From Verrucomicrobiia bacterium (lineage in GTDB: Bacteria; Verrucomicrobiota; Verrucomicrobiia; Limisphaerales; CAIMTB01): DNA of 64,000 nucleotides. Within the stretch, counting starts at the first letter, position 1. Every line of letters starts with the position of its first letter. Positions 45,539 through 49,915 of the stretch are shown here, piece by piece. The stretch is from the NCBI GenBank assembly GCA_019634625.1, contig JAHCBA010000013.1:1-64000 (forward strand), read 5' to 3'. Below the pieces are notes generated by a model. It was not told where the DNA came from. It ran no database searches and was given only the letters and a program-made list of their open reading frames with translations. The position numbers and the translations under genes were made by a program.

Positions 45539-48500
45539 TCAACGGGAAAGCTGGGAAGCGGAGCCGGAACTGCCGGGATCGCCCGGGGGTCGGGCCGCGG
45601 AGAGGAGCTGGTCGCGGCGTTGATGGGCGGCGAGGCAGTCGGGGTCGAGGCGGAGGACTTCGGCGAGGGCGAGGGAGGCCTCGGAGGGGAGGTCGAGCTG
45701 CTGGAGGAGGAGGGCGCGATGCCAGTGGAGGGCCCAGTGGTCGGGGAGGGCACGGAGGGCGAGGTCCAGGTGGCGGAGGGCGAGGTCGTGGCGACCGATT
45801 CGGGCGCAGCTTTCGGCTTCGCGGCGGTGCCAGGAGGCGACTGCGCCGGGGGAGACTTCGAGGATGGGGCTCCAGCGGTGGGTGCGATCGGTGCGCGGGC
45901 CTGCGGGTGAGGTGGGAGAGGTGTCGGTATCGCCCTGGAGGGCATGGGCGAGTTGGAGGAGATCGGGGACGGCGGCCTCGACGGGGGTGAGGTCCCAGAG
46001 GTAGGCCTTGCCGTCGTTGCAATGGGTGAGGAGCCGGCGACCGCCGGCGACGAACCAGGCGCGCCAGACGATGGCCGGGTGGCGGAGGATGGGGGTGATA
46101 GGCTGACCGGAGTGGGTTTCCCAGACGCGGGCGGAGCCATCGGCGCTGGTGGCGGCGAAGAGGTGGCCGGAATCGTCGAAGGTGACATCGAGGACCTGGT
46201 AGCCCATGCGTTGTTCGGCGCGGCGGAGGGGCGGGTTATCGGGGTCCCAGAGGCGGACGAGGCAATCCTCGCCACCGGTGACGACGTAGGCCTCGGAGGG
46301 GTGGCAGGCGACGGCGAGGACACCGTCTTCGTGCCAGAGGTGGGGTTCGAGGCGGCGGCCGGTGGTGACGTCCCAGGCGACGGTGGGGCGGGGTTCGAGG
46401 AGGGCGTCGGTGCAGGCGGTGAGGAGGCGGGTCCCGTCGGAATGGAAGGCGATGCGGCGGACGCGATGGCCGGGTTCGAGGATGGGGGTGGAGGAGAGGC
46501 CGGAATCGATGTGCCAGAGGGAGACTTCGCTGCGCAGGTCGCCTTCGTTCCAGAAGGTGGCGAGGAGGGAATGGTTTGGGGAGAGTTCGGCGCCGTGAAC
46601 GGGGGTATGGAGGTGGCGGCGGATGGGTTGATGGCCGGGGTCGTCGAGGCGCCAGATCCACCAGTCGCCTTCTTCGCCGAGGACATGGAGGTCGCGCTGG
46701 CTGGCGAGGAGGGCTCGAACGGGGCGGGGCAGTTCGCCGAGGAGGCGGGGGCGGGGATCGGAGCGGGAGAGGTCGGTGATCCAGATGCGCCTGTGGGGAA
46801 GCGAGGCGTTTTCGGAAGGGGCCTCGATGGCGACGAGGCGGGAGCCGGAGGCATCGAAGAGGAGCTGGCGGACGGGCCCGGGATGGTGAAGGCGTGGGGA
46901 AATCCGGGCGCCGGTCACGGCATCCCAGATGGCGGCGAGGCCGGAGGGGCCGGCTCCGGCGAGGCGGAGTCCATCGGTGGAGACGGCCCAGGTGGAGAGC
47001 GGTTCCTCGAGTTCGAGGGGAGGGATGGGGCCGGCGTGGGAGGCGAAGTCAAAGACGCGGACGGCATCGTCCACGACAGTGACAGCGCGTCGGCCATCGG
47101 GGAGGAAGCGGATTTGGAAGTGGTTGTGATTGCGCCAGGCGGGATGACGGACGGGTTCGGCGATGAGGGCGACCCGGGCGGGGTCCCAGAGTCGGAGGTG
47201 GCGGTCGAAGCAGCCGGTGAGGACGTAGCGACCGTCTGGGGAGAGGTCGCCACCGGTGACCGAGTGGGGGTGGGGGAGGACGACGGGGAGGCCGGCGGCG
47301 CCATGGGTATCGCCGACCTGGACGCGGGAATCGCGTCCGGCGGAGGTGGAGATGAAGAGGGAGCCGTGCTGGGCGAAGCCGGCCCACATGACCACATCGT
47401 CATGGCGCCTGGGGGGGCCGATGGGTTCGAGGGAGGGGAGGGCGAGGAGATGGACCTCCCGAAGGCTGGCGACGAGGAGGAGGGCATCGCGGGGGTCGAA
47501 TTCGAGGAAACGGACGGGGGATTGGGGAGGGGGGGCCTGGGCGAGGAGGCGGGCGTTGGGGACATCCCAGACCTGGAGGAGGGCGGGGTGATCGGGGGTG
47601 GAATCGATGGCGGCGGCGAGGAAGCGGCTGCTGCGGCTGAAGGCGAGATGTTGAATGGGCGGGTGGGACGGGAGGAGGACGGGTTGGGCGTGGGGGTCGA
47701 GGCGTTGGATGAGGTGGATGGGCGCATCCCGTCCCGCGGTGGCGTACCAGCGGCCATCGGGACTGGCGGCGACGGCCAGGGCGTCGGGGGAGGCGAGATT
47801 GGAATCGGGGAGGCCGCCTTCGTTGTTCCAGGGCCAGACATGGAGCGGCTTCCCGTAGGGATGGGCGAAGAACTCACGGCCGTCGGGGGTGAAGCCGATG
47901 GTGTTAAGGGGCGGATCGAGGCGCCGGGTGGGGCCGGCGGCGAGGCCGTCATCGATGCGCCAGACCTGGACCGCACCGTCCTCGGTGCCTCCGGCGATCC
48001 ATTCTCCGGAGGGATCGATGGCGAGGAGGAGGGCCTGTTCGCCCATGCGCCACTCCTGGGTTTGGCGGGGCATGCTACGGAGGACGGCGGCGATGCGGCG
48101 GCGATGGACTTGTTCGCGGGCGGGGCCGCCGGATTCCTGGCGGAGGGCGAGGATGAACTGCTCGAGGGAGCCGGCGAGGTCGCCGTTTTCCATGAGACGG
48201 ACGCCGTTGGCGACCTGGAGTCGGACGGCGGTTTCCTCGGCGACCCGCTGGGCGGAGGTGGCGAGGGATTGTTTTTCCATGGCGCTCCAGGCGAGCCAGC
48301 CCATGAGGCCGACGATGATGGCGGCGACGGCGGCGGTGCGGGCGACGCCCTGCCAGTAGGCGCGGCGTTCGCGGCGGGCGAGTTCGCGGCGGCGTTCGGG
48401 GAGTCGGCGGAGGCGGACGGCGAGATCGCCGGCGGAGCGGAGGCGGGCGTGGGGATCGGTGGCGAGGCAGGCGAGGAGGTCGTCGAGGAGGAGGGGATCG

Positions 48501-49915
48501 CGGATGCGGCGGGCGACATCGATGGTGACGGGCTGGGTGAGGTCACCGACGAGGACCTGATAGAGCAGGACGCCGAGGGCATAGATGTCGGAGGCGGGGG
48601 AAGGGGGGGTGCCGCGAAACAGTTCGGGGGCCCAGCAGAGGGGGGCGCCGGTGGCGGTGGCGGTGGCGGTGGGATCGGGGGAGAGTTCGGCGGCGAATTC
48701 GGCGGCGAGTTCGGCGGCGAGTTCGGCGGCGACGAGGGCGCCGGTGCCGAAGTCGGTGATCTTGACGGCGGGTGGGGCGGCGGGGTCGGGGGGGTATTCG
48801 ACCATGACCACCTGGGGTTTGAGGTTGCCATGGACGACACCGGCGCGGTGGGCGGAATCGAGGGCCTCGGCGGCCTGGGCCATGATTTCGAGGGGATCCT
48901 CGGGGGTGCGCCAGGGGGTGGGTTGGGGGCCGTGATAATGTTCCCAGAGGGATTGGCCGCGGGCGTATTCGGTTTCGAGGTGGTGGGGGGCGTGATCGAA
49001 CTGGAAGCTGAGGAGGCGGGCGATGCCGGGATGCTGGCAATGGGGGGTACGGAGACGTTCGAAGAGGGGGGTGGCCTCGCGGAGGAGGCGGACGCGGGCG
49101 GGGCGGAAGCAGAAGCGGAGGGCACGGGTGGCCTGGCGTGAGGCGTCGGTGGCGAGCCAGACTTCGCCGAAGTGGGAACTGCCGAGGAATCGCTCGACCC
49201 GCCACGGGGTGCCGGGCACTTCCTCACGAACGGCAGGGCGCCAGCCGAGCAGGATATCGTCGTCGGCGCGATCCTCGGGGGAGCGGCCCGGGGATTGGAG
49301 GGGAGCGCCTTCCTCTTCGCCGACTTCGAAGATGGGGACGGGGGCTTCGAGGCCCTTGAGGCGGTAGTGGCCGTGGCTGAGCCAGCTCAGGGGGGCGAAC
49401 TCGTCCAGTTCGCCCTCGTCCGGGGCGGACCGGGCGAGGTCAAAGGCGGCTTCGGAGAGGAGGATCTGGTCGGGACCGGCGAGGTCCATGACGCTGAAGG
49501 CGAGGCTGACGCCGAAGCCGGTGAGGTCTTTGGCGCCGTCGGGGCGGCGGGATTCCTCGACTTCATCGTAGTGGATGCCGATGCGGTCGCAGATGCGGAG
49601 GTGGGAGGGTTGACCGGCGAGCCAGGCACGGAGTTCGTGCTGGAGTCGAAGGGCGAAGCGGAGGGCCTGGCGGGGATGGGGAAAGGCGAGGAAGACGGAA
49701 TCGCCGCCGGTATTGATGATCTCGCCGCCGCCGACGCGCTGGAGGACGCGGGAGGCGAGCTGGTGATGATCGAGGATGCGCCGGTTGCCTTCCAGATCTC
49801 CGAGGGCGGAGAGGAGGCGGGTGGATCCGACGATGTCGGTGAAGACCAGGGCCTCCCGTCGTCGCACGGGGGTGCGCGCCGCGTCCGCTTGGTCGGTCAA
49901 GGCGGTCGTGTCCAT
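45539..49915 (-). CDS. Class III cyclase domain - pseudokinase - TM - WD40 - TPR protein
   Basis: A 1458-residue five-part protein. Residues 22-195: class III nucleotide cyclase domain, both metal aspartates kept (D27 in VFTDIVGST, D72 in NTGGDSVFLAF). The usual VNxAAR site reads VSLAFS, so the transition-state Asn and Arg are Ser137 and Ser141. Residues 239-505: Ser/Thr kinase fold with glycine loop GSSHFGEV, intact DFG (388-390), but HGNLKPQV replaces HRDLKPxN (catalytic Asp to Asn364) and Arg267 stands for the ATP lysine. One helix (TAAVAAIIVGLMGWLAWSA, 527-545) is followed by about 750 residues of WD40 blades (GTEDGAVQVWRIDDG, ATSADGSARVWETHSG). C-terminal TPRs (HDLALRHLDLALRALPDHW) close the protein. 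Start 49915 avoids overlap with divergent recG. Confidence 0.88.
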   Translation of the reverse strand: MDTTALTDQADAARTPVRRREALVFTDIVGSTRLLSALGDLEGNRRILDHHQLASRVLQRVGGGEIINTGGDSVFLAFPHPRQALRFALRLQHELRAWLAGQPSHLRICDRIGIHYDEVEESRRPDGAKDLTGFGVSLAFSVMDLAGPDQILLSEAAFDLARSAPDEGELDEFAPLSWLSHGHYRLKGLEAPVPIFEVGEEEGAPLQSPGRSPEDRADDDILLGWRPAVREEVPGTPWRVERFLGSSHFGEVWLATDASRQATRALRFCFRPARVRLLREATPLFERLRTPHCQHPGIARLLSFQFDHAPHHLETEYARGQSLWEHYHGPQPTPWRTPEDPLEIMAQAAEALDSAHRAGVVHGNLKPQVVMVEYPPDPAAPPAVKITDFGTGALVAAELAAELAAEFAAELSPDPTATATATGAPLCWAPELFRGTPPSPASDIYALGVLLYQVLVGDLTQPVTIDVARRIRDPLLLDDLLACLATDPHARLRSAGDLAVRLRRLPERRRELARRERRAYWQGVARTAAVAAIIVGLMGWLAWSAMEKQSLATSAQRVAEETAVRLQVANGVRLMENGDLAGSLEQFILALRQESGGPAREQVHRRRIAAVLRSMPRQTQEWRMGEQALLLAIDPSGEWIAGGTEDGAVQVWRIDDGLAAGPTRRLDPPLNTIGFTPDGREFFAHPYGKPLHVWPWNNEGGLPDSNLASPDALAVAASPDGRWYATAGRDAPIHLIQRLDPHAQPVLLPSHPPIQHLAFSRSSRFLAAAIDSTPDHPALLQVWDVPNARLLAQAPPPQSPVRFLEFDPRDALLLVASLREVHLLALPSLEPIGPPRRHDDVVMWAGFAQHGSLFISTSAGRDSRVQVGDTHGAAGLPVVLPHPHSVTGGDLSPDGRYVLTGCFDRHLRLWDPARVALIAEPVRHPAWRNHNHFQIRFLPDGRRAVTVVDDAVRVFDFASHAGPIPPLELEEPLSTWAVSTDGLRLAGAGPSGLAAIWDAVTGARISPRLHHPGPVRQLLFDASGSRLVAIEAPSENASLPHRRIWITDLSRSDPRPRLLGELPRPVRALLASQRDLHVLGEEGDWWIWRLDDPGHQPIRRHLHTPVHGAELSPNHSLLATFWNEGDLRSEVSLWHIDSGLSSTPILEPGHRVRRIAFHSDGTRLLTACTDALLEPRPTVAWDVTTGRRLEPHLWHEDGVLAVACHPSEAYVVTGGEDCLVRLWDPDNPPLRRAEQRMGYQVLDVTFDDSGHLFAATSADGSARVWETHSGQPITPILRHPAIVWRAWFVAGGRRLLTHCNDGKAYLWDLTPVEAAVPDLLQLAHALQGDTDTSPTSPAGPRTDRTHRWSPILEVSPGAVASWHRREAESCARIGRHDLALRHLDLALRALPDHWALHWHRALLLQQLDLPSEASLALAEVLRLDPDCLAAHQRRDQLLSAARPPGDPGSSGSASQLSR

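Follow-up and report, generated by a model that had tools for sequence, protein, structure and literature searches.

What can a membrane receptor do once the catalytic residues of both of its enzyme domains have changed? This question is raised by a gene on the minus strand of the window, i.e. the whole 64,000-nucleotide stretch of a Verrucomicrobiia contig that was analyzed. Its open reading frame runs from an ATG at 49915 to a stop at 45539, stop included, and encodes a protein of 1,458 amino acids (aa). The initial annotation read this protein as a class III cyclase, a kinase, a membrane helix and a set of WD40 and TPR repeats, with both enzymes altered.

Architecture and family of the receptor

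The gene and its parts are as follows.

45539..49915 (-): whole gene, receptor with cyclase homology domain, pseudokinase, transmembrane (TM) helix, WD40 and TPR-like parts (open reading frame and Pfam)
49316..49858 (-): class III cyclase homology domain, residues about 20-200 (family alignment, AlphaFold2, structure match)
49208..49315 (-): linker, residues 201-236, with the family motif GWRPA...VPGT (7/7 conserved positions kept)
48401..49207 (-): pseudokinase domain, residues about 237-505, with G247S, K267R, D364N (HRD to HGN) and N369V (PF00069, E = 6e-20; family counts)
48649..48732 (-): activation segment rewritten by DNA tandem repeats (repeats in the DNA, family alignment)
48278..48334 (-): single TM helix, residues 528-546 (charge bias; continuous helix 505-551 in the AlphaFold2 model)
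45992..48058 (-): WD40 beta-propeller region, residues about 620-1308, presumed periplasmic (Pfam and model, moderate confidence)
45593..45850 (-): TPR-like helices, residues about 1356-1441 (TPR_2, E = 0.0013; helices in a low-confidence model)

Residues 1-552 were modeled with AlphaFold2 (AF2) using 71 family members as input (mean pLDDT 90.8, pTM 0.86). The residues singled out in the initial annotation, i.e. D27, D72, S137, S141, R267, N364 (within HGN362-364) and DFG388-390, are all at the positions given there. Its class III cyclase with both metal-binding Asp is borne out by a modeled fold that matches Ma1120, and its kinase fold by the PF00069 match and by a modeled kinase part with a Z score of about 25 to mycobacterial PknA/PknB. 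The one membrane helix that it proposed could be located at residues 528-546. Because 10 Lys/Arg are found in the 25 residues on the N-side of this helix vs 3 on its C-side, the positive-inside rule places the enzymatic half in the cytoplasm. The cyclase and kinase are hence predicted to be cytoplasmic and the WD40 part to lie outside, a topology also predicted for planctomycete kinase-WD40 proteins (PMC11032199). As for the repeats, WD40 is strongly matched in the full protein (PF00400, E = 2e-33), and the TPR assignment is weak. The C-terminal AF2 model, too weak for counting blades at a mean pLDDT of 64, consists largely of beta structure and has helices at its ends, which fits propellers and TPR-like helices.

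This arrangement is that of a widespread bacterial family. A scan of named genomes brought up at least 447 relatives, and the 80 best among them belong to Verrucomicrobiota, Planctomycetota, Acidobacteriota, Hydrogenedentes, Sumerlaeota, and Elusimicrobia. Among related genomes, 25 of 146 have matches at E <= 1e-40, mostly cyclase-kinase fusions. Family members are 30-46% identical to the window protein over the cyclase and kinase and have the linker motif GWRPA..VPGT in common, and all six that were scanned with Pfam carry C-terminal WD40 or TPR repeats. The window protein shares both the linker motif and the order cyclase homology domain, Ser/Thr kinase, TM helix, WD40/TPR. What sets it apart is that, among 78 distinct aligned members including itself (the set used for all residue counts below), it alone lacks the kinase Lys, HRD Asp and Asn. 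To our knowledge, this family has no formal name. Our searches of the open-licence literature found neither a published description of the fusion nor a described function for a family that combines a non-canonical cyclase homology domain with an apparently working kinase. The best NCBIfam match of the cyclase is TIGR04510 (mod_pep_cyc, putative peptide modification system cyclase; residues 22-228, E about 8e-27 to 3e-26), but its 92-94 bits do not reach the curated cut-off of 400 bits. Similarly, TIGR03903 (TOMM_kin_cyc), which describes a kinase/cyclase fusion, scores 59-62 bits vs a cut-off of 705.75.

Kinase-intact homologs occur in the order as well as in the genus, the latter represented by L013 (41% identity). 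No close ortholog, i.e. none above 46% identity (best 42-46%), was found in searches of the relatives, the order and the class, nor among the named-genome matches listed, which puts selection after the loss beyond the reach of dN/dS. At recG, the site was compared in four congeners and no counterpart was present there (one flank was short). An operon partner such as a sigma factor or kinase was also considered and rejected; no neighbor recurs in 5-kb flanks, the largest cluster comprising 4 loci, so the receptor seems to stand alone.

Active-site changes in the cyclase and kinase domains

The modeled cyclase part superposes on Ma1120 (4wp8) with a Z score of 23.6 and an rmsd of 1.9 Å over 166 residues. 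By sequence, the domain matches the solved cyclases Ma1120 and Rv1900c with E about 1e-14; its PF00211 score of 14.4 bits is below the threshold of 21.9. Both metal positions are occupied (Asp27 and Asp72). The Lys position, which the initial annotation had passed over, is N68 and is variable across the family. The Asn position is S137, but in the 78 family members this position is Asp in 49, Pro in 15 and the canonical Asn in only 7. Moreover, Rv1900c and Ma1120 both lack the canonical Asn and are active (PMC4886424); in the alignment, the Asn position is occupied by His in Rv1900c and by Ala in Ma1120, and the Lys position of Rv1900c is Asn. The Asn substitution is therefore weak evidence of cyclase loss, leaving the loss of the Arg as the only mark of the window cyclase. 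This Arg, replaced by S141, is found in 76/77 other aligned members and in Ma1120 and Rv1900c. Helix 134-145 contains neither Arg nor Lys, which rules out a displaced Arg within it. Judged from sequence, the cyclase lesion is one decisive residue, Arg to Ser141. Compared with Ma1120 and Rv1900c, the domain has the same fold, both metal Asp and a non-canonical Asn position, but those two active enzymes keep the Arg. With its metal residues in place, it could still bind a nucleotide, or pair with a partner that supplies the Arg.

Cyclase decay occurs elsewhere in the family too, as indicated by a subgroup (L016, L017, and L096) with a kinase - cyclase - kinase architecture, two Pfam kinase domains being matched in L017. 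Both metal Asp are lost in L017 and L096 (to Ser and Asn) and Gly is found at the Arg position in L016, the family kinase being intact.

Changes in the kinase domain are more extensive. The beta-3 Lys267, HRD Asp364, catalytic-loop Asn369 and Gly247 positions are each conserved in 77/77 other members, and are Arg, Asn, Val, and Ser, respectively, in the window protein. The family alignment thus rules out chance or misalignment as the source of these substitutions and of the cyclase Arg loss, and a compensating frameshift is ruled out as well, since the alignment passes both active sites without a change of frame. The initial annotation's picture of two altered enzymes accordingly holds for the kinase, although N369V, G247S and the rewriting of the activation segment had gone unnoticed there, and for the cyclase Arg; the cyclase Asn, which it had counted as a lesion, is a family-wide substitution.

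Within the glycine loop, G247S is accompanied by G248H and the first and third Gly are present. The alpha-C Glu position is A281 in an ungapped alignment, although E280 may serve through a one-residue shift (REAT/REVT). DFG (D388), APE, Lys366, D443, R491 and the HRD His are retained, as are the regulatory-spine residues F285 and F389, the Phe of DFG. The pocket has therefore kept the DFG Asp and Lys366 and lost the metal-sharing Asn and one glycine-loop Gly. In the activation segment, the DNA consists of a 12-bp repeat present 4.8 times (encoding AAEL repeats) and a 6-bp repeat present 4 times (TA repeats). Positions 403, 408, 420, and 424 are Thr/Ser in most relatives; in the window protein, either the conserved residue or its context is gone at these positions, with Ala in place of the P+1 Thr424. 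Among 19 kinase loci with recognizable motifs in the same genome, the window protein is the only one without HRD. From these substitutions, we infer that it lacks phosphotransfer.

In intact relatives, small repeated DNA elements, mostly read in frame, are concentrated in the kinase loop between HRDxKPxNIL and KLTDFG. These were seen in L009, L017, L031, L014, L020/L121, L021, L030, L005, and L127, apparently a different element in several lineages; one example is an inverted repeat GTAGCAGCCGACGTNAGGAGGCTC...GAGCCTCCTNACGTCGGCTGCTACGA. The reading frame breaks at the element in L020/L121 and L021, and it is broken at the same place in L032/L126. Such elements recall the in-frame palindromic elements of Rickettsia.

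Constraint on the receptor and candidate partners

Conservation differs between the parts of the protein. Of the positions conserved in >=90% of the family, the cyclase keeps 24/26 and the linker 7/7, vs 44/63 in the kinase. The kinase keeps 30/40 near-invariant sites, the lowest value among the 78 members. Losses were more frequent at catalytic than at structural kinase sites (5/10 vs 5/30), which is suggestive only (p = 0.085, Fisher test). The terminal branch leading to the window protein is long (2.2, about six times the median), and most so in the ATP-binding N-lobe (2.3 vs a median of 0.22, 10 times), with the C-lobe at 5 times the median and the cyclase at 3.6 times (1.17 vs 0.32). Part of this branch may predate the kinase loss. 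In simulations of neutral drift, the 1,458-codon frame was destroyed by 0.1 substitutions per site. GC3 is 0.83-0.85 in every domain of the gene, like that of the adjoining genes. The preserved cyclase sites and the long open frame argue against a pseudogene, and the data favor, short of proof, a protein that still works although released from kinase catalysis. That catalysis by the kinase was lost while the rest of the receptor stayed under constraint is well supported, and signaling by non-catalytic means would follow naturally.

The genome that encodes the receptor (G000, 6.7 Mb) has about 35 further Ser/Thr kinase matches, a large set. Two proteins in it are candidate partners, proposed from domain kinship only; the pairing finds no support in a conserved neighbor gene. 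One, on contig C11 (L063:7262-9127, minus strand), combines an N-terminal cyclase of the same subfamily, with both metal Asp and the Arg, with TM helices and a CHASE2 domain (PF05226, E = 8e-27). The other, on contig C1 (L062:5638-9846, minus strand), has tandem Ser/Thr kinases, then a TM helix and a weakly matched propeller, another kinase standing in place of the cyclase. Its kinases are intact, and the second is, within this genome, the nearest kinase relative of the window protein.

Possible roles and comparison with known pseudokinases

Taken together, these findings suggest that the receptor is most likely a lineage-specific pseudokinase acting allosterically or with catalytically intact paralogs. 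We give a probability of roughly 55% to the specific reading that it is a functional, kinase-dead member of its widespread family, which would work allosterically and partner with intact relatives of the same cell. Ligand binding at the periplasmic WD40 region would be signaled via the TM helix to the pseudokinase, and the latter would set the state of dimers with those relatives. The window cyclase, with metals and no Arg, would resemble the metal-bearing half of a split cyclase; it could supply the metals of a heterodimer in which an Arg-bearing partner, for which the C11 cyclase-CHASE2 protein is a candidate, completes one active site.

The retention of D27, D72 and the cyclase core, together with the DFG Asp, Lys366 and two glycine-loop Gly of the kinase, would also suit the reading of the initial annotation, a nucleotide-sensing scaffold in which neither domain turns over the ATP/GTP that it binds and the bound state is the output. 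Several pseudokinases bind ATP, including JAK JH2 and KSR2, the latter with Arg at the beta-3 Lys (PMC4718504). However, KSR2 and JAK2 JH2 keep the catalytic-loop Asn (PMC4718504) that is Val369 here, the glycine loop is degraded (G247S, G248H), and many pseudokinases bind no nucleotide at all, which makes such a sensor possible but doubtful. Alternatively, the gene might be a decaying paralog whose kinase is under relaxed selection toward loss, the protein having no distinct new function. The long terminal branch, the simple repeats that overrun the activation segment, the kinase-intact homolog within the genus and the failure to find close orthologs all speak for decay. We nevertheless consider it unlikely, as the frame is open with normal GC3 in every domain, the cyclase and linker are conserved almost throughout, and the structural kinase sites APE, D443, and R491 are kept. 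An active but atypical enzyme, either a kinase with a rearranged mechanism or a cyclase making cNMP alone like other Asn-less cyclases, is improbable. It has precedents in Rv1900c and Ma1120 (PMC4886424) and in the weak activity that some pseudokinases retain without HRD (PMC4718504). Yet in both of those cyclases the Arg is present, whereas the window protein has Ser141 and no displaced Arg/Lys in the helix, and the kinase Lys, Asp, Asn, and activation segment have been lost together.

Similar in design are eukaryotic receptor guanylyl cyclases such as NPR-A/B and GC-C, which consist of an ectodomain, a TM helix, a pseudokinase with HG[NSR] for HRD and a retained APE, and a class III cyclase (PMC2754085, PMC4718504). 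HGN in place of HRD, with the Asp lost, is also found in the regulatory pseudokinases of these receptors and of JAKs, where the pseudokinase regulates the linked cyclase or kinase (PMC2754085); the likeness is one of analogy, not descent. The order cyclase - pseudokinase - TM - WD40 is the reverse of theirs, the ectodomain is unrelated, the kinase was lost independently within a bacterial family, and the window cyclase lacks the Arg. By this analogy, the receptor might even be an independently evolved, mirror-image counterpart, in which a periplasmic WD40 part drives an HGN pseudokinase controlling a half-site cyclase that is active only with an Arg-bearing partner (e.g. the C11 protein), a reading that we regard as quite unlikely.

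Bacterial pseudokinases have been little studied by experiment (PMC12599244). Those of the ActPs1-3, GLW, CP1, DYD, and DLHK families likewise have a Hanks fold with lost catalytic motifs, and several are membrane-bound, but the loss described here is that of a single lineage inside an otherwise intact family. GLW proteins differ in having Leu/Trp at the beta-3 Lys position, which is Arg267 in the window protein, and DLHK proteins in lacking a TM helix and keeping the HRD Asp, in contrast to the helix at 528-546 and the HGN found here. Neither a fusion to a cyclase or WD40 part nor the Verrucomicrobiota are mentioned in the text of the review that covers these families (PMC12599244).

The window receptor represents a known kind of bacterial receptor kinase in a pseudokinase form, found as a single lineage in a large, seemingly catalytic family. 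Animal hormone receptors likewise pair a pseudokinase with a cyclase, in the opposite domain order. With intact homologs in both its order and its genus, and with candidate partners encoded by its own genome, the window receptor offers a clean natural experiment in the conversion of a bacterial receptor kinase into a non-catalytic regulator.
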